Part shown: in pieces, positions 7,655 through 63,626 of the stretch
Numbering within the stretch: the stretch's first letter is position 1
Layout of the letters: each line of letters starts with the position of its first letter
Source of the DNA: Tetradesmus obliquus
Taxonomy: Eukaryota; Chlorophyta; Chlorophyceae; Sphaeropleales; Scenedesmaceae
Assembly (NCBI GenBank): GCA_030272155.1
Contig: CP126195.1
Location: forward strand, 496,001 to 560,000
DNA length: 64,000 nucleotides
Reading direction: 5' to 3'
Program-made: the position numbers and the translations under genes
Notes under the pieces: generated by a model
Seen by the model: only the letters and a program-made list of their open reading frames with translations
Databases searched by the model: none
Told to the model about the DNA's origin: nothing

Positions 7655-10369
7655 TCACTGCTGCATGGCTGCGCTCACGTCCATCCTGCTGCTCCTGCCC
7701 AGCCCCTCCACCAGCGGCTGCAGCTGGTCCGCCTTATCATACATGCCCTGCAGCAGCAGCACACGTGCATGTCGTTAGATACAGCAGACTTGGCGCTGGG
7801 CTTCGCGATCCACCATTATCTGGCATTGGAACAGCAGCAAGGCCTGTGCAGGAAGTCCAGGCGCTAGGTCCACGCGCTCGACCAGAAGCTGCCGGCAGAA
7901 CAGACACGTGTCTTCCTGCCCTGAAGCTGCTCTGCTTCACGCTGCCATTCCAGCAAACTCACACAGCTATTGGTTTATGATGCACACTCGCTTGAAACGC
8001 AAGCAACAAAACAGCTGCTCTCATACTCACCAGCAGTCCTCCCGTGTGCACGAACAGCACCTTTTTGCCCTGCCACTGCTGCGGGTCTGCGCGCATGCCT
8101 GCCAGCAGGCTGTGCAGCGCCTTGCCTGAGTACACAGGGTCAAGCAGCACACCTGTGGCCAGAGCCACCTCCTGCAGGGCAGCAGCAGCAGCAGTAGCAG
8201 CAGCAACAGCACGGTTCAGCATCAGCATCAGCACTTTGTGCAGCACCTTGCCGGAGTACACAGGGTCGAGCAGCACACCTGTGGCCAGAGCCACCTCCTG
8301 CAGCATAAGAAGTTGTGCAAAGAAAGGTTGTACAACATATTCAAAGCAGCATGGTCCAGCAGCATGCCAATCGTCAGCTTCAGATGCCGTCAGGCAGCAG
8401 GATTTGTGATGTCAACATGCCCAAGGCACCAGGGGCAAGCAGGATTTGTGATGTCAACATGCCCAAGGCACCAGGGGCAAGCAGGATTTGTGATGTCAAC
8501 ATGCCCAAGGCACCAGGGGCAAGCAGGATTTGTGATGTCAACATGCCCAAGGCACCAGGGGCAAGCAGCAACAACACAACCGCCGTCAGCGCGCAGCAAC
8601 AATATCAGAAGGGCCTTGGTCAAATTGCAGTGACAGCTGTGACCCAAGCATGCAGAAGCAGCATATGCTGTCCCGATCACCGATAGTCCAGAAAGAGCTG
8701 CCGCACCTGCACCGTCTTGAGCTCCTCGTCTGTTGAGATGGCATAGCCTAGGCCCTTGGCATTGTGGGCGGTGAACAGCTGGCTTGCTCCTGCAGACCAG
8801 CAGGTGAACAAGTCACATGATCAAGTCGCATGCGGATGTAGGTCAGAGGCTGTATTGAAGCATCTATCTGGATCTGAGTGAATCTCGCTTTGCTCCTTCC
8901 TTGCTTACACACATTGCAGCAGGCGCCCACATTGTGCAGCATGAGCTCAAGTGCAGCATGAACTTGCAAGCACACGGCAAGCCACTATGCACACATTGAA
9001 CTCCAAGCACACTAGCAGCACTGATGTCCAGCAACGTAAGTCAGCATGCAGGAGCTGTGCCACACCATCCTTCGCACCTGCCTCCGTGTACCCCAGCTGC
9101 TGCAGCAGCCCGCCAATCTCATCAAACAATTTGTGATGTTGACACATGTCTGCACGCAGACCAAAAAAATTGCCACAGCAAGGGCGCACCTGCCTCCGTA
9201 TAGCCCAGTTGCTGCAGCAGCCCGTCTATTTCTTCGTAAAAATACTCGGGGCTGTCGCACACCGCATAAGCATGCACCGCAGCGGCCAGCCCAGCTAGCT
9301 TGGCTCCTAGCGCCAGGCCTGCCGTGGTGCCCGAGCTGCCGCAGGCCTGCAATGCAAGGCAGGGACCAATGACGGCACCAGATGAAAAGGGAGCAAACAG
9401 CGGCAGGTGCAGCCGCCAGGGCTGCTAGCTTGGCTCCTAGCGCCAGGCCTGCCGTGGTGCCCGAGCTGCCGCAGGCTTGCAGTGAACGAAGTGAGCACAA
9501 GCTTGGTTCAGCCCAGGGCAAAGTCTTGTGCAGCGGCCAGCCCAGCCAGCTTGGCCTTTAGTTGCCAGGCCTGCCGTGGTGCCTGAGCTGCCGCAGGCCT
9601 ACAGCAAGATGAAAGCAGTGCACATGCCGGGTTGTGGTGCAGGGCAAGTGACAAATGGTGCAGTGCCGCTGCCTGCCAGTGGCGGCAGCTAGCCAGCCCA
9701 GAGCCATGCCAGCTGTTGTGCCTGAGCTGCCGCAGGCCTGCAGATGACAACCAGACAAGTAAACACAGCACTAGCATGCACGCCAGCCGGCAGTCCCTTC
9801 ACTCGCAGTGCATTGTTGGGTGGCTGCTAGTGCAGCTGCTGCTGCCTAACCACAAGAACCACAGTCTCTCACCGAAGCCAGCACAACAAACTGCAGCCCC
9901 AGCTCCTCCTGCTGCTGTAAAATCGGCAGCATTCAGGTAGCCCCAGCAGCCCAGCACGGCGCAATGATGATGATATCAGCTCCCCCCCCCCAAACAAAAG
10001 TCAATCATCCAGGCCGTACTTGCTGTGGCAAGCTGCAACCATTGCACCTCAACGCTGGGCGCTTTGTACGTGTCACTGCCCTGCCTACGTGGCCTGCCGC
10101 AGCTGCTGCCGCTGCTTCTGTTCTTCAGCCCAAGCCCTCTCACCGACGCAATCACATCAAATTGGAGCCCCAGCTCCTTCTGCTGCTGCGCAATCTCCTC
10201 GACAGCATTCAGGTAGCCCCAGCAGCCCAGTGCGCTGCTGCCACCCACGGGGATGTAGTAGGGCTTCTTGCCCTGCTGCTGCAGCTGCTGACTCAGCGCA
10301 GCACCCAGGCGGGCGGCCCCCAGGCGCGCATACTCTTCCTTGCTGACCTGGGGGGTACAGTCCAGCGGC

Positions 10370-22919: not shown

Positions 22920-25010
22920 CATTCGGCAACTTTCTTTATAGAGTGGAGTCGGCTGGCGATTGGGGCAGTTTTGTCACAGGCAAATGCGGATGGTGAGGAG
23001 CATCCTCTTGCTTTTGCTTCACGTGCGCTCACTGCTGCTGAGCAGAACTATGCTGCTACAGAAGGTGAATGTCTGGCTGTGAAGTGGGCGGTTGATAAAT
23101 TTTCACTACTATCTGCGTGGCAATCGTTTCTTGCTGCGCACAGACCACAAAGCTCTGGAGTGGCTTGACAGCGCGCGTTTCACCAACTCCAAGCTGGAGA
23201 GGTGGGCGATGCAGCTGCCGGCGTATGATTTTTCGGTGCAATATATCAAAGGATCCACCAACTGTGTGGCTGACTACTTGTCACGTCCACAACCTGGTAG
23301 TTCGTGTGTTCTGGAGCATGAGGATGGTCGGCAGGAGAGTGTTTCTGCTGGTGCTTTGGTGATTTGCAGCGCTGCGTGGCCTAGCAGTGTTGTGAAGCAG
23401 TCGGATTTCGATGCGGTGGGTTGTGAGGTTTGTCAGGATCCTGGCGGTTTTGATAACATGGCAATCTGCTCTGGGTGCGATCGGTGCTTTCACCTGCGCT
23501 GTGTCATGCCACCCATGTCTACTGTTCCCAGTGGTGACTGGTTTTGCCCTGGATGTGACCCTTGGTTTTCCAATGTTTCTGAGCTGTGCGATCCGGATAC
23601 AGTGCTGCTGTATGCACCTGGAGATCCTCACGTGGATGATTTTTTGCTGGCTTATGTGCGCAGTGGTATGGATGATGGTGTGCTACAAGGTTTGAATCGC
23701 GGCAGAGTACGCGCCATACGGCACAGAGCTACTGCTCTGCGGCCTCACCGCACTTTGCAGGACTGGTTGATGGTGTTACGGCATGTGAAAGGCGCTAATC
23801 CTGTGTGGTTGTGCTGCCCTCCTGTGTCCTACCGCTGGGATCTGGTGCGCAGTATGCATGATGCTTTGGAACATGCTGGGGTCCAGCAGACATGTGCTTA
23901 TTTGCAACGGCATTTCCACTGGCGGGGCTTGCCTGGTGATGTTCGGCTGTTTCTGGCTCAGTGTGATGCGTGTCAGCGCCGTCGGATGGCACTGCCTGCA
24001 CCTTTCCCCATGCAGGAGCCAGTCGTTCGGGGGCCTTTTGAGCATGTGCATATCGACTTGTGTGGCCCTTTCGTGACTCCTTGTGCTGATGTATATGGAC
24101 GGTTGTATTTGCCTGATGCAAAGGAGCAGGTGTTCAAGGCTTGGGTGGTAGTTATGATCGATTACTTTACAAAGGCTGCAGAATTTGCTGTTATTTATGA
24201 TAAGACAGCTGCTTCGGTTGCTCGGGCTTTCTACTACAGTTGGATCTGCCGGTACTTCGTGCCCAGCCATGTCACCAGTGACAATGGTACTGAGTTTGAG
24301 GTTCAGTTTGGTCATTTGCTGGCACGTTTGGGCATCAAGCATGTTCAAACGTCAGCTTGTCATCCTGCTGCTAATGGTGTGGCGGAGCGGTTGGTGGGCT
24401 CTTTCAAAAGCATACTGGAGCGGCATGTGAACTCTCATCCGATTCATTGGGTGCAGAGTGTTCCTGTGATGCGGCAGCAGTACTGGGCTCGTGTACATGC
24501 CACCTTGGGCATTTCGCCGCAGGAGATGGTGTTTGGCAGACAGCCTGTGCCTGTGTTACCTTTGGCACGTGATGTGTTGGCAGTAGCAGCATCTGCTAGA
24601 GTCTGGGTTTGGCCTGAGTTGTTTGAATGTGAGCATCCGGCTTTGCATGCAGCGCAGTTGCGTCAGCAGCTGGCGGCTGTTGATCAGGATGTATTTGTCA
24701 GGATAAAGCAGCAGTTTCAGCGGAATGCGCGTGCTTGGCCCCTGCGTGGTGCCCGCCGCACTGTTGACAGCTCTGTTACTTTTAATAAAGGCGATCTTGT
24801 GCTTGAGGTGGTTTCAGGCCCTGTTACCAACCTAGGAGATGGTGTGCGTGGGCCTTTCCGTGTGCTGGAAGTGCGTGACAATGGTGTAGTTCTGCTTACG
24901 ACTGGCAGTACAGGTTTTCGTGATGCTGCTGCGTTCACGCGGCACATCAGCAATCTGGCCAGGTACCTGGACAAGCGCTCTGTGCGTGCTGCTCTAGCAG
25001 CGTCCTGAGT
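22920..25010 (+). mobile_element. Broken Ty3/gypsy-like LTR retroelement fossil (RNase H to integrase end)
   Basis: What remains, in order: the end of the RT-linked RNase H (AIGAVLSQ, HPLAFASRAL, NYAATEGECLA motifs), a PHD-type zinc finger (Cys4-His-Cys3, about 23424-23565), the integrase zinc-binding HHCC module (CDACQRRR), the integrase core (HIDLCGPF through the VTSDNGTEFE block) and a C-terminal GPY/chromo-like tail. Gag, protease and most of the reverse transcriptase are not seen and flanking LTRs were not identified, so it is broken, with about one break in the part that remains. The well-preserved integrase suggests a moderately young insertion. The PHD finger between RNase H and integrase is unusual. 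Confidence 0.88.
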
Positions 25011-41483: not shown

Positions 41484-42989
41484 TCAGATCAGCGTGCTGC
41501 CCGTGCCGCTGCCCACCAAGCCATTGCTCAGCCCAGCCGCGCTGCCACCAGACGGCACCACTGGCATCATCACCGACATGGGGTGGTGTGTGAAGCCACT
41601 GCTGCCACTCGCCACGCCAAACTGCTGCTGCTGCTGCACAGGCGGCCGAGGCGGCTGCTGCGGGCCTGGCCTGGGCACTCCTGCCACACCAGCCGGCATG
41701 AAGCCATACTGGGGCTGGCCCACAGCCCCAATGGCCGCAACAGGCGCCGCCAGCGGCTTCTGCTGCATGGGTGCATCGTACAGCTTCAGTATGTCCTCTG
41801 CTGTCTTCTTGGGCGTTGCTGCTCCGCTGCCGCTGTTGCTGCGGCTGTGCTGTTGCTGCCCAGTGCTGCTGCCTGCAGACGCCGCCGGGCCGAGCGCTGC
41901 TGCTGGTGCGTTGGTGCTGACAGCCATGGTCTGGATGCTGCTGATCAGGTCGTGCGACCCTAGGCTGGCAAAAGGGTCTGCTGCACCTGCAGCTGCTGCT
42001 GGTGGCGTTGCAGACTCCTGCTGCTGCTGCTGCACCTGCTGTGTTGACGCAGCAGAGAAGGGGTCTGCTGGTGCTGCTGCCGCTGCCTGCACTGGCTGCA
42101 TTGCCGGACCCGACACGCTGCTGAACGATGCCGAAAAGGGGTCCGCAGCTGCTGCCACCGTTGACGACACTGATCCTGACACAGACGAGGGCACAGCGCT
42201 GACACTGGGCGCTGATGCAAAGTCGTGCCAGTCATCATGATCCAGCAGGTTGAGCGGTCCTGCGGCTGCTGCTGCTGCTGGTGCGGCTGCTGCTGCTGTT
42301 GGCTGTGGTGCAGGGCTGTTGCTAGCGCTGCCGGCGAGGAGGTCAAAGGGATCAACTGAAGCTGCTGCAGCTGCTATAGCTGGGCTTGCGTTGCGACTGC
42401 TGTTGCTCGGCGGCGGGTGCAGCGACAGCAGGTCTGCTGCTGCTGGTGCTGCCTGGGCACTGCTAGAAGCTGGCGGACGCGTAGCTGTGCGTGCTGCTGC
42501 TGCGTCTGCCTGCTGCTGCTCCGGTGCTGGCGCCTGCTGCTGTGGCACATACGGGTGCCCTACATAGTTGTTTATGTCCGGTGGCGGCGCATCGCTGGCT
42601 GCATAGCGCCTGTCATTGTACTTGGCACGTATGAATGAGGCCAGCTCTGGGTTGGGCTGCCCTCCAGGTGGCCTTTTGAAGTGGTCTGGCAGCTGTGCTT
42701 CCCAGTACAGGTTTGCCTTGCTGTTGCCCATGGCCCGCACAAACTCCACCTGCCGCGGCAGCCACGTGTCTAAGTTGCATGAACGCACTTGCGAGATGTG
42801 CACGCCCAGAGAGCGATGGATGCCACTGCAGGTCAAGCAGACGAACACGCCCAGGTTGACGCTGGCCCAGGTCGGGTTGCGTGTGCCACAGTCTGCGCAC
42901 GTCCTGTTCCCATCCTGCTTCAGCACAGCAGCAAGAATGCGTCTGTGCCGCTCGTTCTGCTCAAGACTGACGTCTCTCTTGCTGTTCAT
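41484..42989 (-). CDS. ArfGAP domain protein (AGD5/SMAP-like), single exon, 501 aa
   Basis: The ArfGAP domain occupies about residues 10-130. It has the zinc finger CADC...CLTC (C-x2-C-x16-C-x2-C), followed by [12 protein letters not shown] with the arginine used as catalytic finger, and a typical end [14 protein letters not shown]. Such proteins stimulate GTP hydrolysis by Arf GTPases in vesicle traffic at the Golgi and endosomes. The remaining 370 residues are A/Q/P/S-rich with DPF-like motifs ([20 protein letters not shown]) typical of clathrin-adaptor binding tails. A single exon is unusual among its neighbours. The ATG at 42989 is the first in frame. Confidence 0.95.
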
Positions 42990-45900
42990 GCTGCTCGAGC
43001 CTTTCGCACTGCTAGCGGCAAACAGCTGTACACGTCACGTAGCTGCAGAGTAATAAAGGTCACTGGCTTCTAGTAAGTCTCAACGTGCCACGTGGGCAAA
43101 CCCCATGTCACGAACATGCTGCGGTTATGTCATTCGCCAGGTTGCTGACTCCAGTGGGGTTTTGTGCTCGATGGTCAAGTTGAGCTCCAGAGGCAGATGT
43201 TAGTGAAGGGCCTAGTGTTGCCAAATCTGCAAGAATCTGCTCCACAGGGCCAGCTGTCTGACTGCAGCAGACCGAAAACTCCCCACGCACACAACATGGT
43301 TGCCCAGATGTGCAGCAACCACTCCGCTCTATACCTAGTGTGCAGCAATCATGGCGCTGATGTGATCACATAAGCACTTCACGACGCATCATAGACAATC
43401 CTCACCACACAACAGTTCAGCCAGAAGTTCTGGCTGCACAACGCTGCAGTCCTGCAGGACACAGCTGTGCCAGCTGACCCAGTCCGTGCACACACAGCCT
43501 CATGCAGTTCGCAGAGCCTGCAGACCTCACAACATTGCAAAATCAAGCGCAACCACAACCGCGCTTCTGCTACACCAACCACACCCGTACGGTGAGCAAG
43601 TCACTCAAAACAGCCCATGCTCTACGCGCTCAGGATTCAAGTGCAGGCAGTGCTGCAACTGCAGCCGCTGCACCCATGGACAGCAGCTGCCAGTGTGCAC
43701 ACACAAGTGAAGGCCACGACGCCAGACAGAAACCAGTTCGTAAACAGGCCACCAATCCTAGCCTGACCTGGATCTAGTGGTGTAAACAGTCACTCTCTGG
43801 CAGAAGCCACCAGTGCAGGCCAACCCCCTCCCCACCAAGCTTGCCAGCGCGGCACAGCGCCAGATGTTTGATGAATCTGGGATGATTTTGGGAAGAACCT
43901 TCCCCAGCAATGCACAAAACAGCATGCCAGGCCCTGCCACCATCTTGGTGAGAGAATCTCACAAGATCAAGGATTAGAAGCTGGAGCGTGCCTACCACAC
44001 ACAGCAAACCCAAGCTGGGATTTTTTCAAGTGCAGTGCAAGGGCAACGCTGGCTTCCACCACGCATTGCCACACCAGCCGCACCTAGACTGACAAGGAAA
44101 GCGGCACGTCACGCTCACAGCACGAGCGGTGTGGCAGGTAATTCCGCTACACTGCTCCAGTGTTGCACAGACACAGCATGTGCAGCAGACAGGCCGAAAC
44201 CACACGGACAGTGTCGCAATCCTACATGACAGCAATACCTCAAAGCATGCAGCATGTATATATGAAAACATAACACTCGGCAGTAGGTGCTGGAGTTGCA
44301 GCCTGCTCAGCATGCCTGGCAGGCAGCTCCTGAAGTTCTTGGTGTGCACTCTCAACAAGCAGCAGCAGCACCTCACTGACAGTGCATGCACAGCTCCAAC
44401 TATCGACAACCACTCGCCCGTTAAGAGTGCTGGCGACGGGCCAGCTAATACCGCCCGGCCCGCGCAGCAATGTGCTGCCCTGCCCTGCCTGCCTGCTCGC
44501 CTGCAGCGCCAGGCATGCTGCAGCAGCAGCCAACACCACAACGTAATCGGCGCAGACTAACACAAGCACAGTAATCAGCAGAGCTGCATCTACAACACTC
44601 AGCCACATCAAAAATGACTGAGCAGCTGCTACATGCAACAGCACGCAGCATGGCTGATGAGCTGCTGCTGCCCAATACAGCCATGCCATTATCAAACACC
44701 CTCTGCTAGCCCAACAAAGCAGCGGCAGCTGCGCAAACGCAGCGCAGCAAGCCGGCCGGAGTTTGTATGGCAGCATTTGCGCCGCAGCTGCTGTATGGCA
44801 GCTGCTGAATGAGTGATGCATCATGCAAGTGCAGTTGAGTTGCATGTAGAACAGCACACCCCCAAACCACAGATACCCGATTAAACAGACAGCAACAGAC
44901 ACGTCACCGAAAATCGCACACCACAGAAAGCACAGGTTTGGCATGCCAGCTGCAATCAGCAGAAAGCGCTCAACACAGACATGCGCAATCAGCCCAGCCT
45001 GAAGCTTCCACACGCATCTACAAGCATTTGCTGTGGTTGCAAGTAGGCGCTGCGCAGCATGCTACAGCATTGGGCAAGCTGTGACTGCTGCGGCAGCCTG
45101 CAAGCCGCAAAAGCCCCTTCCAATGCATCAGTGCATGGCCAACTGCCATACATACAACACGTGCAAGCAGGAAGCGAGGGTCCAGCAAGAAGCATCGACA
45201 CTAGCGCTGCACGGAATCTCCTCGCAACCACTTTGCGTGCAGCCTGCATCACCTCTGGTTCAAAAAGCTGAACAGCAATTGGTGTTTACAGGCAGGCGAG
45301 GGGGCCGAGCAAGCCACCCACCACTCTCCCAATGTGCATGCTAAAACTCAAACACAACACTCTCACGAGTCCCGCCTCAAAAGTAACCCCCATCTCTCAT
45401 CAAAATGCAAATAAGGCAATGCACATGGCGCTGCTGCCAGACACAGGCACACAGCACCACCCAAGAAGCCACGATACGAGGGAGAGAGATTGAACAAATG
45501 TAACAGAGTAAAAAAGGCTGCGGCACATTTGCAGCTGCTGCTGCTGCCGCCGCCGCCAAAGCTGCATTGTCAACAGGCACAGCAGCAACTGTAGCAGGGC
45601 CAAGAGCCCCTGTCTGGCGCCCCTGACTCTGCTGCTGCCGCTGCTGCTGCCGCTGCCAATGCAGCTCGGAATTCCACTACACAACGCACCTCACAGTACC
45701 CTGCAGCAGCCGCTGTTGCTGCTGCTGTATAAGTTGCATGTTCGGTATAAACACCATACACCTGCTGCGCTGTTGCTGTGAACTGCAGCCCTCTCTGCCT
45801 CACGCTTCGCCTGCTGCTGCAGCTGCCGCTGCCGCTGCCACACACAGCGTATTGCCCCAACCCACAAACACAAGAATTCAACAAATGTAAACAGAATCAA

Positions 45901-52336: not shown

Positions 52337-53241
52337 TTCAGTTCGCACGCAGCCGTGCGCGCGATCATTTCACCATATAGACCGATCAAGGACCGCAGGC
52401 GCACGAACAAGTGCCTCTGCGGCCTATGTTGAGCCAAGTTCAAAGCACCTCTCTTCTGCTTGGTGATGTTTGCGATTATAGTGATGTTGCTTGCAATAGT
52501 AAAGCATGATCAGTGTGCAGGTAATAGAATTGGCGTGACTTATGATGCTGGTGCCCAAATTGTGACGTTAGTGTGTATGTAGAGTCCACCACCGCCAAGA
52601 ACAGCTGATAGCTTGTTCCACAGCAACAGCGATTGCAAAATACCAGGTATGTTCACCAAGGTCACAGCTGTTCAGCGATCAGCAAGTTGGCAGTCAAAAA
52701 CCCCACTGCAGTACTTGGTTACAGCACGCATGTCAGCCAGCTGGCCATGTGCCCATGCCTGATGCCCCAGCCTGTGTAGCCTGTGCACAACCTGCCTGGC
52801 AACAAATATGTGAAAGGCATCAAGCTGCCTTTTATAGCGGCAACTTGATCACAAAGGTCACCATGTGATGCCATGCATGTGTGCGGCCGGCCACAGCTGC
52901 GGCGGCAGCCTGAGAATGCTTGCACATGTGCTAATGCATGAGTGTTATATATAGTGCGCACGGACAGACAGCATTCTAGACAGCACCTGCGCCCACCTTG
53001 GCCACTGCAGTTGTTTGACTATTCACAATTCACCTATGCTAGTGTACACATGCTCTTGGATCAATGGAAAAACACAGTCTGACGCTGCGGCAGCACTGCC
53101 CGCCTCGCCGCGCCAGCAGCTGCCTCATGCAGCAGCCTGCTTGGCTGCTGCTGGCGCTGCAGCCGACGCTGGCGCTGGCAGCGTGGCAGATGTTGCCAGG
53201 CAGGCACAAGCAGCGCGCATCTTGCCGCTCCGCCAGCTACC
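52337..53241. promoter_or_regulatory. Spacer: Q-rich gene promoter and dehydrogenase 3' UTR
   Basis: Both genes run on the minus strand. Short repeats of CAGCAGCCTGCTTGGCTGCTGCTGGCG type at 53128-53275 extend out of the dehydrogenase last exon into its 3' UTR. A minus-strand TGTAA lies at 52719-52723. No gene seen. Confidence 0.4.
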
Positions 53242-56200
53242 TCATGCAGCAGCCTGCTTAGCTGCTGCTGGCGCTGGCACTGGTGGTGGCGGCGTGGCAA
53301 ATGTTGCCAGGTAGGCAGCAGCAGCGCGCATCTCGCCGCGCTTCTTATGGCCACTCCACCTCAGCTCAGCTGCCATGAGCTCAGCCACCTGCGGGACAAG
53401 AGAGGACACAATGGCGGCAAGCACAGTATCGAATGTGCATTATGCTGCGGCAGGTGAGTGGCAGAGCTGAGCAGCTATGCATCTCCTTTCACTGTAGCTA
53501 CTCCAACCTCAGCTCAGCTGCCATGAGCTCAGCCACCTGCAAAGCAAAGCAAAAAGAGGGCACACGCACAGCATTGCGTGTGCATATTGCTGCGGCAGGT
53601 GAGTGGCAGAAGTTAGCAATTACGCATCTCGATCCGTTGCTTCCACCTCAGCTCAGCTGCCAGCAGCTCAGCCACCTGCAGGGCGGCAGCAGCATGATAA
53701 GAATAGGCTGATTGTAAGCCACAACTTTCAGCATCGGCACTGTGCCACTCCCTTTATAAAGCAGAAACTACGACTAATATTGCCCCTTATTCAGTGCAAA
53801 GTAGCCCACCCAAACCCTGACGCGGCAGCAGCAAGCACAGCAGCAGCAGCACAGGTGCGAGTGCTGCAGCAGCGTGTTGTTTGCATCGCACTTACTACAC
53901 AAGAAGTGCGTGTCAGTGCGTGCCAGTCCCAGCCAGCGTGTGCAGCTTGCTGCAGGTGATTTATATACGCAACCATCACATATCGATTCTGGCATGCATG
54001 CATGCTTATGCAGCGCCAGCTCACCCGTGGCACTGCTGCTGCTGCCGCCTTTGCGTCCAGGAAAGCCAGCCGGGTGCGCCGCGCCAAAAAGTCCTCCACA
54101 GACATGCAGTACTCATGCCTGCAGCCACAGCAGCAGCAGCAGCAGGTATAAATTATAGCTTACCACAGGTCGACGCAGTGTTTGTGGACTTGAACATGTA
54201 GGTGCAGCACACAACCGGCCAGTAACAGAGGATGGAGTGCACAAGCAAAGCAGACGCTTCACAAGCTGACAGCCACAATATTAACCTTGATGCCGCCAAG
54301 CAGCTCAACCCAGCTTGATCAGTGAACAGCAGAAAGTGCACACGGCGCCAGGCATGTCAGCCCAGCCAACCTCGCTGCTGTTGTAGCAATCACTGCTGTT
54401 TGGTCGGACGATGATCAGCAGCAGCCGCTGCTGCAGCTGCGTTTTCAGCAGTGACAATGCAGGAGAAAAGGATTGAGCAGGGCCCGCCTGACTGCCCACA
54501 CCACTTCGGCGACCAAGTATGGGTGCCCCGGCACCAGCAGCTTGCCCAGCTGCTGCGCGGCTGCCAGCTGTTTAGCTCGAACGGCGTTTGATGGTCAAAC
54601 ATGAAGCAGCGCCCACTTGACTGACCACACCAGGCACCTCATGAACCAACCATCAGCAGAAATCACACACGGCGCCAGGCATGTCTCACGAACCAGCTCG
54701 CTGCTAATGAAGCAATCGCTGCTGTGCAAGCGGCACCCACCTGACTGCCCAGACCACCTCGGCCTCTAGGTAAGGGTGCCCCGGCACCAGCAGCTTGCCC
54801 AGCTGCTGCGCGGCTGCCAGCTGCAGCACGTGCTGCGCCTGATCACCATATGCAGCAGCCAGGTGGCGTGCTGTGGCGCTGCTGCAGGCTGGGCTGCTGG
54901 GCAGCATCTCAGACGCCTGCTGCGCGACCTGCAGAGGATGCAGCAGCAGCAGCAGCAGCACATGCAGCGTGTGAAGAGCGTGTGTGCATAGAGCTGCTAT
55001 GAGCTGTCTACATAGCGGTCGTTGGTATGTAGACATCGACATGCAGCTGCCAGGCGCACATGGCGGCAGCGCAGCAGCTTGCTGAACACCGGCCGTTGCT
55101 GTGTGTGTGATGCTGATGCCAGCATGCTGTTGGCTGCTGCAGGCACACGCCAGCATGCGCCGGTGCCCTGGAACCGCAAACATCCGGCAGCTGATGTAAG
55201 GCACCAGGTATCCCTGCTGCAGCTGTTGCGCCAGCATTAGATACAAAGCCTGTTATTATACTTCACAACGCCCACCTCTGCGTGCTGCGTGTGCTTGTAG
55301 GCCTGGCCTCCCAGCAGCTTCAGGCGCGAGGTGGTGCACTGGTGAGCCACCTGCACCCGCCCAGTGGCCAGCGCGACATCCACGGCATCCTCAGCCATGC
55401 GCCGGTAGGTGGTCCACTTGCCGCCTGCAGCACAATTAAACGTAACAATGTCTTGTAACACAGGCGTATATTGTTTTGGCCAGCGCAGCATCAATGGCGT
55501 CCTCAGCCAAGCACCGGTACGTTGTCTACTTGCCGCCTGCAGGATATAAAATAGGAGAGCATTTTGTTAAGCAGCCATTCAATATGTTGCTGCCAGCGCA
55601 GCATCAACGGCGTCCTCAGCTATGTGCCAGTATGTGGTCCACTTGCCGCCTGCAGCACACCACAGTGGCAGAATGCTTTAGTGAACAGGGTGTAACTGAG
55701 CCTGTTGTTGGCTCTGCCAACTGAGCAATTCACTCCTGTGCTGAACAGAGTATGCAACGTGGCGCAATGGGGTGTCATGTGGTTCAGTTGCAATTCACCC
55801 TCAGCTGATCCCTGCCGCACCAATGTGTGGGGATAAGGCAGTCTGTCAGTTATCTGTCGGTTACTAACAGTTAAAGTCACGACTACTGGCCACTGCACCT
55901 GTGATGGTGATGAGGCCGTTAGGCTCTGTGAAGATGAGGTGGTCCCGCACAATGTTGCCGGTGTTGCCCGCATCCTGTGCTGTGGGGTCAGCCGCCAGGG
56001 GCCGGATGCCACTCCACGTGGACAGCACGTCTGCGTGCCGCACCTGCAGCGGCAATCATCATCATGCATCAGATTAGCAGTTGTGCTGAGTCACAGCATC
56101 GTTGATGCCAGTGGCCCTACGCCCTCAGGGATGACTTAGCTGCCAGGGGCCGGATGCCACTCCACGTGGACAGCACATCAGCGTGGCGCACCTGCAGTGG

Positions 56201-59200
56201 CGATTACATTACCATGCTTGGTCAGCGCAGCACCAACAGGCAAGCCGCAGCAGCAGCTGATCACACCCTGCAACAGGCACCCTGCTTTGTCGAGCACAAT
56301 TCCAAAATCAGCGCCAACATCCGCAAAATCAATTATGAATCACAGGATGCTCAAACACAGCACACAGCACCTTGACTTGCAGGAAGTCCGAGCCGTTACG
56401 AACAGGCCACAAATGGGCATTGCAAAATCACAACACACCAACTCCTTGCACGCACCTTGATCTGCAGGAAGTCCGAGATCGCGTCCAGTATGAAGGCTAC
56501 TTCATCAGCAGACGCCTGAGGCCGCGCTGTCACTGGGCAGGGTGCATCAGTAGTGCCTGCAATGATTGAACCTTGGAAGGGCAGCATGAACACCACGCGC
56601 CCATCCTGCAGGCAGCAAGCAGCAGCACGCATGTGAGTGAGCAGCATTTGTCCTAGGTGCTGATGGTTTGTGCAGCACCTGCTGACATGAATTACTTGGT
56701 CGATGGGGCCTCACGAGCGCAGGGGGCAGCCCACTATTTTGACCCAGTAGCACTGCCAGCAATATGCGAGCAGGTGTTGAACGGTGGCTTGCGCTGGACA
56801 GCAAAGCAATGTTCGCAAAGGTATCAACAGACAAATTGCAGCAACAGTGTCAACGGCAGCCAGCACAGGCCCACACCTTGATCTTTGGCACGATCATGCG
56901 GAGCCGTACCACTCAGGCATTTCCATCATCCTGTGGGCAGCTGCTGAGTAGTGTTCTGGCACAAAAAGCACGCGAATTTCCCAGACAAACAAAAACAGGA
57001 AGTTATACAGCAGCAGCAAGCGTGGCCTCTCACCTTGGTCTTTGGCACGATCATGCCGACCCCTGCGGAGCCGTACCACTCAGGCAGCGTCACGTGGGCG
57101 CCTGAGCTGGCTGTGACGGCATGCTTCACGCAACGCCCATTCAGGTCGCGCACCTGGTCCACAAAGGGACCTGCGCAGCAGCATCAACAGCAGCAGCAGC
57201 AGGCAGTTGTGTGACGCCATCTTCACTAGCCACCAATGGCAGCCGTGCACGCCGCCAGCAGCAGCAGCATGCATGCAGATGAATGCAGATGCTGCTCAGG
57301 TAGCCGCACGGCAGGCACCAGCTGCTGCATGCAGCCGAGCATGATGTGCTTTGCTGCATGCGCACCTGTTGCGTTGATGACCACTTTTGCGTGCACGTCA
57401 AACTTCTTCCCTGACTGCTTGTCGCGGCAGTGCACGCCAGTCACTTGACCGTTGGCATCCTGCAAGCAAGCAGACGGCCCGGAGCATCAGCTGTTAGCGC
57501 ATACCACGCACACACTGCATGCACATTAGTCTTGTGAGATCACACGTGCTGCACAGGCAAGCTGCATAGGATTGTGCGCCCGCCCTCTGCCTCCCTTGGT
57601 TTGCCTTCTGCTTCCTGCTTCCCTTCTTGCTTTGTTGTTACTGGCAAATTGGGTCAATGGACACCAGATGCGAGGCAACATCATGTGTAGCTCATGCGCA
57701 AATCAGCATGCACAGCAGGATCACATGTGTGCACCTTGATGAGGCCAGCCGCCTCCACAAAGTTGTCAAGTCAGCACCATTCAATGCATGGCATTGACAA
57801 AAGCTCGATCAAGTGCGCTGCATATGCACATCACAACGCACCTTGATGAGCCCCGTTGCTTCCACGTAGTTGGCCACAGCTGCGCCTGCTGCGGCTGCTG
57901 TGGTCGCCAGCGCCACGTTCAGCCGCGCGTCATCAAACTGGCCGTCATAGTACAGAATCTGGGGCATGCGAAGGTGCAGCAAGACACAGAAAAAAAGGCA
58001 CAGCATGACGGTACGGCACAATCAGGTAAGCCAAGCCTCTTGGACTGGCCGTCATAGTACAGGGCCTGGCGCAAGGCAAGGCAGCACGTGAAACCCACAG
58101 AATAGCAGGGCACGACACAGCCAAACATCGAAGTGGATGTCATAGTGCAGGATCTGGCACAAAGGAACGCACAGCAACAACAGCAAGATAAAGCCCAGCA
58201 CGGCACAGCAAGAGTGGTCCACGCAAGCATATGCTAGCTCTGCCACTGCCACCGCCTCCACAACACGCAGACGACACTGCGAAAGATGTCTACTAGACGC
58301 TCCAGCCCGCGGCATGGCCGTGGGCGCTGTGCTGTGGAGTGCATGTTATAATTGACAGCCATCCCCACTGACACGTTGGGTGCTTGTTGCTTAGCCGCTG
58401 AGACAATTGATGATCAGGCAGTCTGCGACAGCGCGACTGCCTACTACAGCGAGTCAGCTGTCAGCTGTACCCCACACAGGGACCAGCAGCATGTCGTGCT
58501 TGGATGGCTCTGCCATCTTACCCACAATTTCAAGGCAGACACCCACACATATTTTGGCAGGCCAAAGCAGAGAAGAGCAGCCAACTCAAGAACTAGCCGC
58601 GTCATGCACCGTGCCTTTGAGGCTGCTGCCATCGTGGCCTGATGTCAAGGACTATTGTTGCATACAAAGTCAATCTGGGTTCTTTGCTGGTCAAAGCTAG
58701 GCCAGTGATAGCCAGTCATTACACGCCCCAAAGATAACCCCACGCACCGTGCCCTTGAGGCTGCTGCCGTCGTGGTTGGCCTCAGCCAGTGTGGGCAGCC
58801 GCCGCAGCGACTCGCTGGGCAGCAGGTATTTGCTCCACGCCAGGTTGCGCGTGCCTGGGGCCAAAATGCAACAAAAGACACATCAGTTTGAGCACCGGCA
58901 GCCAGATGCAGCTGTGAGCCTTGTATGGATTCATACTGGAAGCAGGCACTTGATCCATGCCAGGTTGTGCGTGCCTAGTGCTGCAGGAGCAGCTACAGAA
59001 GCCTGTGCCTAGTGCTGCAGGAGAAGCTACAGAAGCCTGTAGCCGCAGCAAAGGCAGGTGTGAGCATGCGGCAAGCGCTGCAGGACCTGATGCGGCACGC
59101 AGGCATGCAGCATCACAAAACCGCTGCACGCACAAGCTGCCATCTGCTTCACATCCTGCACTGCGATGTTGTCAAGCGCCAAGCACAACTGGATAAGGGT

Positions 59201-61379
59201 GTCCACCAGGTGCTGCCGACTGCAGGAGCCAGATGAAATTGTAACAACGTCCATGTAACAATGTAACAGCTAAGTAACGCACCCGCGATGAGGTCGTAGG
59301 CCTTGAGCCCCGCCCAGTAGAAGGGCACCTCCCACCACTTGTAGCACGGCATCAGGATGGGCAGCGTGGATGTCAAGTGGGGTGCGTTGTCCAGCAGGTC
59401 CCGGCGCTCCTGCAAGCCCAGCGTGCACGTGCATGAACACAGCAGGTTCAGTGAGTTGCAGCGTTGATTTCTGCTTGAGCCAGTGTGAGGTGAAGAGCCA
59501 GCAGGTCACAGCGCTCTTGCAAGCGCCGCCCATTCAAAACAGCAGCAGCAGTGATGTGTTACCATCAGTGTAAAGCGTGATGTGCTGCGCCTGCGAGTGA
59601 CGGAGGCAGGGCAGCGTGGATGTCAAGTGAGGCGCGTTGTCCAGCACGTCACGCCGCTCCTGCAAGAGCAGCACGACACCACCTGCTTCAAGATTGCTTT
59701 AATCAGCTGTCCGAAGCCTCAAATGTGGAACACCAGTGCTGCTCTGTGCTATCACGTCCAATGACATAGCACAAGCCACATACCAACGTCTGCGACGGTT
59801 GCTGCCACAAGCCGCACCTGCAGCGCTGTGTACACCAGCTTCAGCTGCAAATTGCCACACGAACCAGATATAAGGATCCGCAACTACTTGCCGCCGCAAC
59901 CACTTGCCGCCTCAAGCCGCACCTGCAGTACCTCGTACACCAGCTTCAGCTGGCCTACCTTCCCGCACCCCAATCACAACATTGCTGCGCTGTGGCAGAT
60001 CAACCCCCGACACACAAACGACCAAGCAACAAAACATTCAAGCCGCACCTGCAGTGCCTCATACACCAGCTTCAGCTGCCTGGAACGCCACAGTAAAACA
60101 GATTCAAGGAGCCAAACACCAGACACGCTAGCTGCCACAAGCCCCACCTGCAGCGCCTCATACACCAGCTGCTTCAGAATTGTTGTGATTCGAAAACCCA
60201 AGTGGTGCTCGGTGCTTGTATTGTACCGCAAACCACGCGTCACACCTGCAGCGCCTCGTAGACCAGCTTCAGCTGTCCATAGTCCAGGTTGAACACTGCC
60301 TTCTCTAGGTAGCGCACCCCACCATGCACCAGCTTGGTGGACTTGCTGCTGGTGCCGCTGCCAAAGTCCTCGCGCTCTATCAGCGCGGTGCGCAGGCCCC
60401 TGCAACAGCAGCAGCAGCAGCGGGGCACCAATGATCATTGAGATACACAGCAGGATGTTCATGTATGCTGCTGGTGCCGCTGCCAAGGTGCTCATGCTCA
60501 ACAAGCGCGGTGCGCAGGCCCTGCAGCGCAGTATCGCAGCAGCAACCACGGAACATGCTCTGCGAGCAGATACGGACCAGCTGTCTTGACAACGATGCAT
60601 ACCAGAGGTTGCAGATGTGCTGCCGCTACTGCTGTTGGTGCTGCTATTTACATTGGCGTTGCGCCCAAGGCTACCCTGTGCTGCTTCTGCTGCTGGTGCT
60701 GTAGTTTCTGGCGCGCTTACTCCGCAGCAATGTTTGGTTTGCAAGGATGTTTGGTTTGCAAGGCAACCAGCACTCTAGAGATTCATAAAACGGGTTGCAG
60801 GCAAATGCCAGGTATTGGCTAGGCGAAAAAGGGTGTGTGCAGGAAACATGTACGTGCCCTCCAGGGCAGTGGCACTATGCTTCTGCTGGGTGGTTCCCTT
60901 CAGTTGTCGGCCAGATGCAGGCAGTACAACGCATATGGTGCATGACCTGGTTGCTTCTGCTGCAACGTGGCAAGCAGGTTGCTTGCTGTCATATCACCAA
61001 CACGTTCATTTTTGATAAGTTGAAGCCCCTGTGTGCTGATGCTGCTGGTGTTGCTGCTGCTGCTGCTGTCCCGCAGCCGAGGTTGTGCATGCTTGCTGCA
61101 CGTGACATGACCAGCTGCTGCCAAGAGCGTGTGCACCCACCTGGTTGCTGCATCCACTGCAATACCTGTGCCCGTGGCTCCTCCACCAATGACCAACAGA
61201 TCAAAGGGCTGGTTGGGCCTTGAAGTACTCAGAGCAGCAACTTGCTGCTGCCGGGAGGGAACAGCGGCAGCAAGCATAAGGTGCTCGCCCTCCTGCTGCT
61301 GTGTCGAGTTGAGGAGGATGCCTCCGCCAGCTCCAAGTCCCAGCACGCCCAGCCATGGTGCTAGGCGAGCTGAAATCAT
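53242..61379 (-). CDS. FAD-dependent glycerol-3-phosphate dehydrogenase, mitochondrial type (SDP6/GlpD-like), 13 exons, 615 aa
   Basis: Exons on the minus strand are 61379-61141, 60399-60246, 59409-59283, 58854-58748, 57958-57842, 57459-57366, 57170-57034, 56605-56456, 56043-55899, 55424-55276, 54928-54741, 54118-54025 and 53388-53242. All phases match (1848 nt). The enzyme oxidises glycerol 3-phosphate to dihydroxyacetone phosphate and passes electrons to quinone at the inner mitochondrial membrane. Visible blocks: a hydrophobic, basic N-terminus (targeting/anchor), [20 protein letters not shown] (FAD), [148 protein letters not shown] and [10 protein letters not shown]. Length is close to plant SDP6. 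At least 10 of its 12 introns contain copies of the neighbouring exon end. Confidence 0.96.
53490..53690 (-). repeat. Echoes of dehydrogenase exon 13 start
   Basis: The VAELMAAEL coding start and its acceptor (CTGCAG-like) recur at about 53500-53542 and 53637-53684. The second reads CTGCTGGCAGC where the real exon has CATGGCAGC. Confidence 0.8.
54485..54575 (-). repeat. Echo of dehydrogenase exon 11 3' end with its intron
   Basis: About 88 bases match 54739-54826 ([20 protein letters not shown] and donor). The following intron bases are also duplicated (AGCAGAAA...CGGCGCCAGGCATGTC at about 54328 and 54656), so the unit is roughly 330 bases of exon end plus intron. Confidence 0.85.
55480..55660 (-). 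repeat. Two echoes of dehydrogenase exon 10 start
   Basis: [14 protein letters not shown] coding sequence with its acceptor recurs at about 55480-55545 and 55590-55658; the real start is 55424. Each is followed in gene sense by different intron sequence. Confidence 0.85.
56138..56200 (-). repeat. Echo of dehydrogenase exon 9 start
   Basis: This matches 55988-56050 ([17 protein letters not shown] with acceptor) with about five differences. Confidence 0.85.
56368..56398 (-). repeat. Echo of dehydrogenase exon 8 3' end
   Basis: This short copy of the SDFLQ coding end and its donor differs at several places from the real end at 56456. Confidence 0.65.
56873..56930 (-). repeat. Echo of dehydrogenase exon 7 3' end
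   Basis: PEWYGSA...MIVPKIK and donor match the real end at 57034, but the copy lacks about 10 bases that code for GVG in the real exon. Confidence 0.8.
57733..57772 (-). repeat. Echo of dehydrogenase exon 5 3' end
   Basis: This repeats the VEATGLIK coding end and the CAAG|GTGC donor (real end 57842) with a handful of changes. Confidence 0.75.
58040..58156 (-). repeat. Two echoes of dehydrogenase exon 5 start
   Basis: LYYDGQ coding starts with CAG acceptors recur at about 58042-58062 and 58128-58155; the real start is 57958. Confidence 0.75.
58605..58640 (-). repeat. Echo of dehydrogenase exon 4 3' end
   Basis: The HDGSSLKGT coding end plus GGTGC donor (real end 58748) recurs here with few changes. 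Confidence 0.8.
58938..59040 (-). repeat. Echo of dehydrogenase exon 4 start and a nested tandem duplication
   Basis: [12 protein letters not shown]-like coding sequence with its acceptor recurs at about 58938-58979. Just beside it AGTGCTGCAGGAGCAGCTAC-type sequence is duplicated in tandem (period about 31) at 58978-59040. Confidence 0.8.
59493..59662 (-). repeat. Two echoes of dehydrogenase exon 3 start
   Basis: The [16 protein letters not shown] coding start with its CTTGCAG acceptor recurs at about 59608-59665, and a shorter piece at 59493-59525. The real start is 59409. Confidence 0.8.
59815..60177 (-). repeat. Four echoes of dehydrogenase exon 2 3' end, each with an intact donor
   Basis: The segment coding for [10 protein letters not shown] followed by CTGCAG|GTG recurs at about 60146-60177, 60046-60079, 59920-59952 and 59815-59849. 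The real donor is just after 60246. All four keep CAG|GT. Spacing is about 95-125 bases, so the array looks like serial tandem duplication of a unit that spans the splice junction. Confidence 0.9.
60470..60528 (-). repeat. Echo of dehydrogenase exon 2 start
   Basis: [18 protein letters not shown] here matches [18 protein letters not shown] in the real exon 2, again preceded by CTGCAG. Confidence 0.85.
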
Positions 61380-61655: not shown

Positions 61656-63626
61656 ATGATTGCTCGTTGCCTCAGCGCTCGCACTCAGCTCCGTCCAGCG
61701 GCAGCCAGGAGTGTTAGGAGTAACGTAGTACAGGCAGCTAGGCCGGTGGCAGCGCAGCAGCAGCGGCGACTGGTGACAGTTCGCTCAGGTGAGGTGCACC
61801 TGCTTCTGGAGCCTGCTGTGGCATGGGACTAGCAGCACAGCGTGCTTGAAGATCACATGTCTTGTGAGCAAGCCTTTATGATACATTGTAGGTCATGCTG
61901 CAGCACCCATGGGGCTGACATCGCCCAGAGCAGCAATCCTCCTACAGCAGCTGCATGCTGCAGTCCTGCAAGTGCTTTGCGTGCGCCACTGTGTGCCTCC
62001 GGTTGCCCTGTACTCATCACTCTTATTCTATACCATGTGCTGCATCCGTTCTGACACGATCTGTGTGCTTGGTGCTGGTGTCATGCTACAGATACGGGCA
62101 GCGCAGTGGCAACAGCAGCAGAGGTCGCACCGCAGCACGCCATCACGCTCACAGACAACGCGCTGTCTCACCTGCGCAAGCTGCAAAAGGAGGCTGGCAG
62201 CGAGAGCCTGCTGCTGCGTGTGGGCGTGAAGCAGGGCGGCTGCAGCGGCATGTCATACGTCATGGACTTTGAGACAGACGCAAACATCAAGGTGCGGCAG
62301 GGACTGGTCGCCTGAACACGGCCAGTACTAACAGTTTAGGCTGGGGTGTAGCAGGGATTCTTGTTAGAAGGCGCTGTTGAAGCTGCGGTGGGACATCAGC
62401 AGTCATGTGTGGCTGCAGCAACAGCAGCAGGCATGGCACAAGATACACCTTGGTTGTGGTGTGTCATCACATTCAGCAGCACAGTTTTGGTAGCTGCCAA
62501 GAGCTGGCGCAGCTATGTGTGGCCATCACACACAGCGCGCTTTGCTGCAGCTGTCAAGTTTGCTGCTGTCAAGTTATCTAGCGGAGTTTTGGGTGCACCA
62601 GCAGCAGACGGCTGTGGCGTTGCTAGCTCTGTGCTGATCATCAGCAAGCGGCACCGATGTGCATATGTAAGGCACAGCCGTGCTCCTCCTGCTTGACATT
62701 TCTCGTGTTGCTGCTGTGCCAAGCTTTGAACAGCCACTGCTGTTTGATGTGTGCCTGCATCATTACAACACCATTACCAGGAAGATGACTACATTCCTGA
62801 GTACGAGGGCGGCTTTCGGCTGGCCTGCTGTACCTCTTGCTGCTGTATCCATTTGCTGCGTCACTGCACCGCGTCACTGCCCATCCCAACTTTAATGTGC
62901 CTCGCACTGTGTCCAACAGGAGGACGACTACATCGTGGAGTACAGGGGCGGTTTCAGGCTGGCCTGCGACCACTCACAATGCTTGCTGAACCACTGTATG
63001 TGTGCCGCCGCCGCTGCAAAACTGAACAGGAGGACGACACCTTGCAAACAGGCGTTCTGTCGTCACGCGTCGCCTCGTTCGCTGCTGCTGTGGCAAGCAG
63101 CTACTATGGCCAGCTGCTTGTCATCTGACGTACATACTCTTTCATTTAATCTTATGCGCCGCAGGAGGACGACTATATTGTGGAGTATGAGGGCGGCTTC
63201 CGGCTGGCGTGCGACCCCAAGAGCCTGCTGTACCTCTTCGGCATGAGCCTGGACTACAGCGACGCACTCATCGGCGGCGGCTTCAACTTCAGGTATGCTT
63301 TGGCAGTGACCAGTCAACGTTTAGGGCTTGCTAGCTGTTGCGTTGGGCCTGCCAGCGTGCTGCGCACCACTGTCAACTTGCGACAGGGTCATGCAGGTGT
63401 TGCAAGCAGCATCAGAAGGCGTGCGCCTAAAGCGCAGGGCAGCTTTTGCAGCAGTGCATCGCATGTAACCTCACCTACTCCAGCACACTCCTCGACTCTG
63501 AAGATAATAGTCTGAAATGGGCAACCCTGGACTGATGTTGGTTTGCTGCCTGCCATTTCCTTGTTGCGCTGCAGCAACCCCAATGCTGAGAGCAGCTGTG
63601 GCTGCGGCAAGTCTTTCTCTGTCTAG
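61656..63626 (+). CDS. IscA/SufA-type iron-sulfur cluster carrier, organellar, 4 exons, 170 aa
   Basis: Exons are 61656-61788, 62092-62291, 63165-63292 and 63575-63626; phases agree (513 nt). The first 45 residues are Arg/Ala/Ser-rich and lack acids, as in organelle transit peptides. The A-type carrier domain follows: [32 protein letters not shown] (first cluster cysteine), a segment around [13 protein letters not shown], and the end [14 protein letters not shown] with the CGC pair. These proteins receive and pass on Fe-S clusters during assembly. ATG is preceded by CCACC, a good initiation context. Intron 2 contains three partial copies of exon 3. Plastid versus mitochondrial location cannot be settled by eye; the SCGCGKSF end favours the plastid/cyanobacterial SufA type. 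Confidence 0.94.
62778..63045 (+). repeat. Three echoes of IscA/SufA exon 3 start
   Basis: Copies of the [16 protein letters not shown] coding start with an AG acceptor lie at 62781-62830 ([16 protein letters not shown]), 62920-62972 ([17 protein letters not shown]) and, shortened, at 63030-63040. The real exon is 63165-63292. Each copy keeps CAGGA at its acceptor. Confidence 0.9.

Follow-up and report, generated by a model that had tools for sequence, protein, structure and literature searches.

Exon-end copies in the introns of a glycerol-3-phosphate dehydrogenase gene

The stretch of 64,000 nucleotides (nt) of Tetradesmus obliquus DNA analysed here (contig CP126195.1, positions 496,001 to 560,000; referred to as the window) carries a gene for an FAD-dependent, mitochondrial-type glycerol-3-phosphate dehydrogenase of the SDP6 type (GPDH), whose introns contain partial copies of the ends of their own flanking exons, i.e. 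'echoes' of the exon ends. In our gene model the introns range from 195 to 836 nt in length (coordinates in Table 1). The GPDH translation is 100% identical over its full length to a public protein (P0001) that is found on four contigs, none of them longer than 2,437 bp. As these contigs are too small to hold the 8.1-kb gene they presumably represent spliced transcripts, and they thereby presumably support the exon joins of the model and leave the echoes out.

Every exon-intron junction was represented by a probe of at most 50 exon letters and 12 intron letters, which was searched against its own intron. In 10 of the 12 GPDH introns, and for 13 of the 24 junctions, the probe outscored all 300 dinucleotide shuffles as well as every other GPDH intron, while intron 6 (195 nt) and intron 10 yielded no echo above the shuffles in the same search. 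A preceding reading of the locus, based on the sequence only, had reported copies in at least 10 of the 12 introns, about 17 in all and one to four at a time. Our alignments gave 21 copies at a score of at least 20, of which 20 were kept after removal of one; a junction has four copies at most. A match upstream of exon 11 was dropped, because it is of low complexity and does not include the junction.

Table 1. Coordinates within the window of the GPDH gene, its echoes and the echoes of two other genes (distances are to the corresponding real splice site)
Feature	Position	Strand	Remarks
GPDH gene	53242..61379	-	13 exons, 12 introns, 615 aa
GPDH exons 1-4	61379-61141, 60399-60246, 59409-59283, 58854-58748	-	gene model
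GPDH exons 5-8	57958-57842, 57459-57366, 57170-57034, 56605-56456	-	gene model
GPDH exons 9-13	56043-55899, 55424-55276, 54928-54741, 54118-54025, 53388-53242	-	gene model
Exon 2 head, in intron 1	60466..60543	-	122 nt from acceptor; 56 exon nt + 22 intron nt
Exon 2 tail + donor, echo 1, in intron 2	60135..60170	-	98 nt from donor
Exon 2 tail + donor, echo 2, in intron 2	60030..60078	-	197 nt
Exon 2 tail + donor, echo 3, in intron 2	59920..59955	-	323 nt
Exon 2 tail + donor, echo 4, in intron 2	59805..59847	-	428 nt
Exon 3 head, in intron 2	59604..59672	-	250 nt from acceptor
Exon 3 head, second echo, in intron 2	59485..59554	-	107 nt; AG lost (CAA)
Exon 4 head, in intron 3	58938..58981	-	120 nt
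Exon 4 tail + donor, in intron 4	58603..58637	-	138 nt
Exon 5 head, in intron 4	58126..58210	-	195 nt
Exon 5 head, in intron 4	58029..58116	-	107 nt
Exon 5 tail + donor, in intron 5	57689..57775	-	107 nt
Exon 7 tail + donor, in intron 7	56828..56919	-	157 nt; frame-breaking 10-nt deletion
Exon 8 tail + donor, in intron 8	56338..56392	-	85 nt
Exon 9 head, in intron 8	56138..56217	-	148 nt
Exon 10 head, in intron 9	55592..55694	-	225 nt
Exon 10 head, in intron 9	55489..55551	-	112 nt
Exon 11 tail (119 exon nt) + donor, in intron 11	54476..54610	-	253 nt; GT changed to GC
Exon 13 head, in intron 12	53642..53682	-	287 nt
Exon 13 head + homologous intron part, in intron 12	53451..53593	-	148 nt; 145-nt tandem unit, TRF period 145
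Coding-end copies across the GPDH stop codon, 3' flank	53092..53228 (region listed 53092-53339)	-	lags 117 and 111
Two echoes of the exon head starting at 63165, ISCA/SufA-like gene	62778-62828, 62917-62971	+	gene identity by eye, not by family search
Three echoes of the exon starting at 9346, D-cysteine desulfhydrase-like gene	9407..9743	-	echo starts 9476, 9598, 9737

Frequency, spacing and splice sites of the echoes in five genes

Four other genes, namely those for glutamate synthase (GOGAT), glycine decarboxylase (GCVP), carbamoyl-phosphate synthase (CARB) and gyrase A (GYRA), were located with E. coli fragments and modelled with a spliced aligner, their selection being independent of echoes. 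When tried on GPDH, the aligner placed 12 of the 13 exon starts and ends correctly with a 54%-identical protein as guide, and with a 61%-identical guide it predicted 16 exons, of which 11 starts and 11 ends were right. Exons judged unreliable were excluded, namely 12 of the 24 predicted in GYRA, the model of which was guided by an E. coli protein, and 3 of the 28 in GOGAT; of the 26 exons predicted in CARB the final three were dropped. In the GCVP model guided by E. coli, which underlies the gapped survey, the ungapped scan and the codon counts given below, two donors were wrong, each adjoining an exon marked unreliable and hence not counted. Save for the first residue and two stretches beside such exons this model matches the deposited protein (OEZ86_008483), which guided the later model used for the 80 introns. 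The sample thus obtained comprises 80 reliable introns (34,191 nt) of five genes on four contigs, all from one species, T. obliquus.

An echo within the adjoining intron was present at 62 of the 160 junctions (GPDH 13/24, GOGAT 11/42, CARB 13/42, GCVP 19/38 and GYRA 6/14), and no match was obtained with any of 1,600 shuffles, 1,600 unrelated introns or 160 reverse-complement probes. The objection that the sequence-only reading had itself foreseen, that shuffled or unrelated introns might match equally well, therefore does not apply, and its statement that the copies lie in the orientation of the gene holds for all detected echoes. The pattern, which had been described as a trait of GPDH, is confirmed as genuine and beyond chance, and it extends well past that gene. 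Echo-bearing introns (48 of 80) have a median length of 499.5 nt versus 227 nt in the remainder (p = 8e-10): echoes are found in 39 of the 44 introns of at least 400 nt and in 9 of the 36 shorter ones, or, by finer classes, in 0/11 below 200 nt, 3/17 of 200-299 nt, 9/11 of 300-427 nt, 21/25 of 428-599 nt and 15/16 of at least 600 nt. Larger introns give more room for matches, but according to the shuffle and unrelated-intron controls the number of chance matches at this threshold is zero.

The spacing of the echoes was analysed at a looser score threshold (15), which yielded 105 echoes at 63 junctions, with a single echo at 39 and two to six at the other 24. The first echo is located 82-176 nt from the junction in 56 of these 63 cases and 195-258 nt in the other seven, and 39 of the 42 successive spacings within arrays fall within 73-165 nt, the typical distance between neighbouring copies being about 115 nt. 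Some arrays are very even, with echoes at 111, 221, 328, 436 and 546 nt in GCVP and at 133, 266, 396, 529 and 662 nt in GOGAT. According to an ungapped scan, the copied exon part has a range of 16-89 nt and a median of 44 nt in all but one of 45 units, the outlier having 1 nt; in the gapped survey masking shortens the exon parts at spacings below about 160 nt. Unit length is independent of the reading frame, the lag modulo 3 being 0, 1 and 2 in 17, 21 and 21 of the 59 lags below 170 nt.

The sequence-only reading had also stated that the copies always include the junction and mostly keep the splice dinucleotide. Both statements stand: in the gapped survey of four genes all 57 exon-derived copies abut the junction (in the ungapped scan 12 of 57 rows stop 0-36 nt short of it, owing to indels or diverged junctions), and the dinucleotide is kept by 45 of the 52 donor echoes (GT) and by 35 of the 41 acceptor echoes (AG). 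The latter counts were made with exon-only probes whose alignments reach to within 6 nt of the junction, five donor and four acceptor echoes having been set aside. Abutment is what a contiguous duplication demands, together with selection for an unchanged protein, and would not be demanded by the pasting of random exon pieces. The median site scores of the echoes approach those of the real sites (donors 10.3 versus 10.4, acceptors 8.5 versus 8.8) and lie far from those of other GT (-3.7) and other AG (-0.9) dinucleotides. Even the echoes without flank homology keep GT or AG in 44 of 52 cases, and the acceptor echoes with an unrelated intron flank have a median score of 5.4 versus 9.0 in their real sites. 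A survival of about 85%, however, would be expected from the roughly 10% divergence of the exon parts, and is thus no proof of use. The arrays of potentially competing splice sites that had been proposed are present at the level of the sequence, but the database proteins of GPDH (P0001, from the short contigs) and GCVP (a deposited prediction) are without echoes, and some echoes carry frame-breaking indels.

Differences between echo and exon are distributed over the three codon positions as 68/57/144 in 59 partly non-independent units, i.e. 54% at the third position, and the changed codons comprise 114 synonymous and 104 nonsynonymous ones, including 3 stops. By our own reckoning, some 46-50% third-position differences are expected between a neutral copy and a constrained exon, which leaves little room for coding selection on the echoes. 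Such selection had been considered because two copies in the ISCA/SufA-like gene (ISCA) looked strongly synonymous by eye, but the pooled counts disagreed. The shortest first spacing (82 nt) is close to the shortest intron observed (88 nt). The possibility of twin introns, in which the unit equals a minimal spliceable intron, was nevertheless rejected as a general rule, because several exon tails have no terminal AG and most acceptor echoes no initial GT.

Origin of the echoes and their anchoring on coding ends

The association with coding ends also emerges when all repeats within the 80 introns are considered, as 95 of the 166 repeat pairs touch a real exon and 65 hold exon-derived sequence (62 in both copies, 3 in one). 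Moreover, it extends to sites where nothing is spliced: copies that span the stop codon occur in GPDH (at 111 and 117 nt) and in GCVP (at 106 nt), that is at 2 of the 4 stops checked, which argues against an origin borne by the spliceosome and for duplication at the DNA level at coding ends. A repair process that copies junctions, one of the two origins put forward by the sequence-only reading, is thereby made needless. The other, growth of introns by tandem duplication across splice junctions, is supported by the greater length of the echo-bearing introns and by complete tandem units. The latter make up 5 of the 45 junction units in the ungapped scan (marked FULL; one is merely 70% identical), and an array near 718 kb of contig C5 consists of a 122-nt multi-unit repeat, spacer included, with a self-match of 313/316. 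Homology continues into the intron flank in 31 of 83 echoes, the exon parts of which are 94.5% (donor) and 92.8% (acceptor) identical.

We therefore consider it probable that the introns are lengthened by tandem duplications with a unit of about 85-165 nt that are anchored on coding ends, and that these are silent since splicing at the outer sites yields the mRNA as before. Such a short duplication would span the border of a coding exon, be it at a donor, at an acceptor or at the stop codon. The exon end within its inner copy would then be stranded in the intron or the 3' flank as an untranslated relic, the intron gaining one unit, and once two copies are present further exchange or slippage could generate arrays of that same spacing. 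As the outermost donor or acceptor still connects identical coding bases, no change of the mRNA need result, and the exon, being held by selection, would stay a usable partner, so that the exon-derived part of a unit outlives the intronic part. In this scheme we infer the exchange or slippage step, the role of the exon as a lasting partner, and the splice sites used in genes other than GPDH and GCVP. A more far-reaching version, in which the selected exon is a lasting template from which units of 85-165 nt are copied again and again towards the outside, to end up in introns and 3' flanks, such that the longer introns are largely layers of decaying exon-end copies, seems to us plausible but short of probable.

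A number of observations weigh against anchored tandem duplication or do not follow from it. Most echoes (52 of 83) show no detectable intron homology past the splice site despite exon parts that are 90.2% (donor) and 88.8% (acceptor) identical, and flank homology is absent even beside a 51/51 identical copy; likewise, among the 51 recent units of a 264-kb stretch the spacer is unmatched to the left flank in 34 and to the right flank in 33. Homology past the copy is found in the exon interior in 7 of 52 units and in the intron in 13 of 53, and being so seldom found it implies that most short copies are not merely eroded longer ones. Exon-part identity is flat along the arrays (0.893, 0.900, 0.883 and 0.896 for ranks 1-4), the nearest copy being slightly above the farthest in 24 arrays (0.907 versus 0.873, p = 0.053). 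Coding-end copies are lacking at the stop codons of CARB (positioned by extension of the last exon) and ISCA, and at the start codons of GPDH, GCVP and ISCA. Finally, the remaining six of the 166 repeat pairs consist of 2 that adjoin exon-derived sequence and 4, in two introns, that are purely intronic, with spacings (182, 208, 326 and 327 nt) outside the common 82-165 range. Under stricter tests for exon-derived sequence (four similarity thresholds) the purely intronic pairs number 4 or 5, the strictest setting adding one at 88 nt, and the one-copy-only pairs rise from 3 to 10. When random placement was simulated, decay included, and the outcome passed through a similar detector, 0.97-1.40 intron-only pairs were expected for each junction pair. 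Such pairs are therefore far below expectation, which implies either that duplication is biased to coding ends or that intronic units disappear whereas those anchored on exons are renewed. A plain tandem origin of all units is not claimed, given that in GPDH, the 264-kb stretch and the gene set the spacers are mostly non-homologous to the flanks. Either the spacers are lost or replaced faster than the exon parts, or many units may have begun without matching spacers, which conversion by the exon would explain. The cause of the anchoring, and of the unrelated spacers in many copies, is left unexplained by the model.

Conversion of this kind, possibly from cDNA, could by itself be the main process, if the units are old and diverged and their exon part has repeatedly been overwritten by the exon. 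The sharp drop of homology at the junction and the flat mean identity with rank both fit this explanation, and so does the nearest echo in the D-cysteine desulfhydrase-like gene (9346-9476, minus strand), which is identical over 53 nt and then abruptly diverged yet still exon-like, with CAA in place of the acceptor AG, and which to judge by its letters looks like a conversion tract. Conversion creates no copies, however, and residual exon-side homology past the copy is uncommon (the 7 of 52 units above), so that we regard it as unlikely to be the explanation. Random tandem duplication throughout the gene, visible only at junctions because exonic duplications are purged and intronic ones decay faster, would account for the junction contact of all 57 exon-derived copies and for the stop-codon sites; we nevertheless find it quite improbable in view of the simulation, given that 4 of 166 pairs are purely intronic and that this number is stable (4-5) under the stricter tests. 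That the echo sites score like real ones, keep GT or AG in the flank-non-homologous class and start at a distance close to the shortest intron might indicate that they are kept for function, as redundant or recursive splice sites or as alternative exon ends under selection. This is very doubtful, since GT/AG survival equals what divergence would predict, a dead CAA site stands beside the perfect 53-nt copy, and acceptor echoes with unrelated flanks score well below their real sites; in addition there are the nonsynonymous codons with their 3 stops, the frame-breaking indels, the frame-independent unit length and the omission of the echoes from the GPDH and GCVP proteins. An assembly or haplotype artefact deserves hardly any credence, as copies that are about 10% diverged and are spread over five genes, on four of the 17 contigs of the assembly, do not represent an assembly fold-out, and the GPDH protein is intact on independent contigs.

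The echoes might also stem from Introner-like elements inserted at exon ends; the spacer would then represent the element, and the exon copy a target-site duplication of unusual length. Introners, which are associated with large-scale intron gain in some algae, form families of mutually similar elements, part of which are flanked by target-site duplications of 3-9 bp (PMC9860276). They share with the echoes the large-scale gain of intron sequence, and the 52 of 83 echoes with non-homologous intron flanks are in keeping with an inserted element. Each echo, on the other hand, derives from the adjacent exon; seven spacers gave no match of more than 19 nt outside themselves within 339 kb of fetched sequence, where they thus form no family; the copied exon part is far above 3-9 bp in 44 of 45 units (and 1 nt in one); and complete tandem units with homologous spacers exist. 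Insertion of such elements is therefore rather unlikely.

Relation to known systems, and repeats elsewhere in the sequence

Minisatellites and satellite arrays in introns have a regular period and can grow by exchange. The echoes differ from these in being anchored on coding ends, 162 of the 166 repeat pairs touching an exon or containing or adjoining exon-derived sequence. In the RdRp gene of potato, a single tandem duplication across an intron-exon boundary, splice signals included, produced a new intron together with additional exon sequence (PMC4974935). This duplication is boundary-crossing, tandem and equipped with splice signals like the echoes, but it is one event with a new intron as result, whereas in T. 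obliquus 62 of 160 junctions are involved, existing introns grow, and the GPDH and GCVP proteins omit the copies. In Drosophila, seven introns have been attributed to tandem duplication, which needs an exonic proto-splice site and makes a new intron (PMC2891723). There too duplicated (proto-)splice sites turn exon-derived sequence into intron, but the echoes occur at existing junctions and some stop codons and are partly arrayed. The copies lie within existing introns or past stops and no GPDH intron is unit-sized, in contrast to Rogers-type intron gain, where a new intron appears at an exonic AG/GT; no search for new introns elsewhere was made. Tandem exon duplication likewise leaves exon copies of the same orientation within introns, but those copies can be spliced in (PMC9013439), whereas echoes are exon ends of 16-89 nt (in 44 of 45 units) with nonsynonymous changes, stops and indels; no copy in the gapped or ungapped survey spans a whole exon, so that neither tandem exon duplication nor mutually exclusive exons are encountered. 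The main text of a comparative study of Sphaeropleales (PMC12571836) is without words beginning with intron or tandem, and no report of arrays that are pervasive, evenly spaced and anchored on coding ends, and by which introns become longer, was found among the open-access literature matches listed. The examples from potato and Drosophila establish the kind of event, and the anchoring on coding ends could prove to go beyond it.

Our results bear on intron growth in several ways. Long introns are usually credited to transposons and small insertions; 39 of the 44 introns of at least 400 nt studied here lie next to the very sequence from which their growth, or some of it, derives, and, as the copies differ in age, this growth can be traced step by step. 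Each duplication event would plant a strong decoy splice site, as scored from sequence, with which the cell has to cope. The anchoring on coding ends, some stop codons included, points to a mutational bias or recombination effect, for which we know of no name. Annotators, and those who design guides or primers for T. obliquus as a biotechnology alga, should beware of exon ends that recur inside introns.

In the window as a whole there are 140 repeats with a spacing of 50-400 nt, versus 3, 1 and 1 in shuffled windows. Besides GPDH they include the ISCA-like gene (61.7-63.6 kb) and the D-cysteine desulfhydrase-like gene (about 8-12 kb), with further clusters, some of short period, near 13-15, 19, 39 and 46-50 kb. 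Short-period tandem repeats of another kind than the echoes start at 8396, 16783 and 19103 (periods of 42 nt, 65 nt and a multiple of 7). Only one repeat match falls within 20-36 kb, the region with a retrotransposon reading frame. This open frame (23083-25008, plus strand) has matches to a reverse-transcriptase RNase H, an integrase zinc-binding domain and an integrase core (the last below the curated cut-off) as well as a PHD finger, and looks like a piece of a long terminal repeat retrotransposon. Another long open frame (41484-43034, minus strand) has a strong ArfGAP domain.

In the next 200 kb the number of repeats per 10-nt spacing class is 2-10 below 90 nt, 18-29 at 90-139 nt and 8-12 at 140-169 nt, with 10-19 again at 170-269 nt, about twice the unit. 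On contig C8 (3851377-3859028, minus strand) one methionine synthase fragment matches three places within 8 kb, which may be tandem gene copies or echoing on a large scale.

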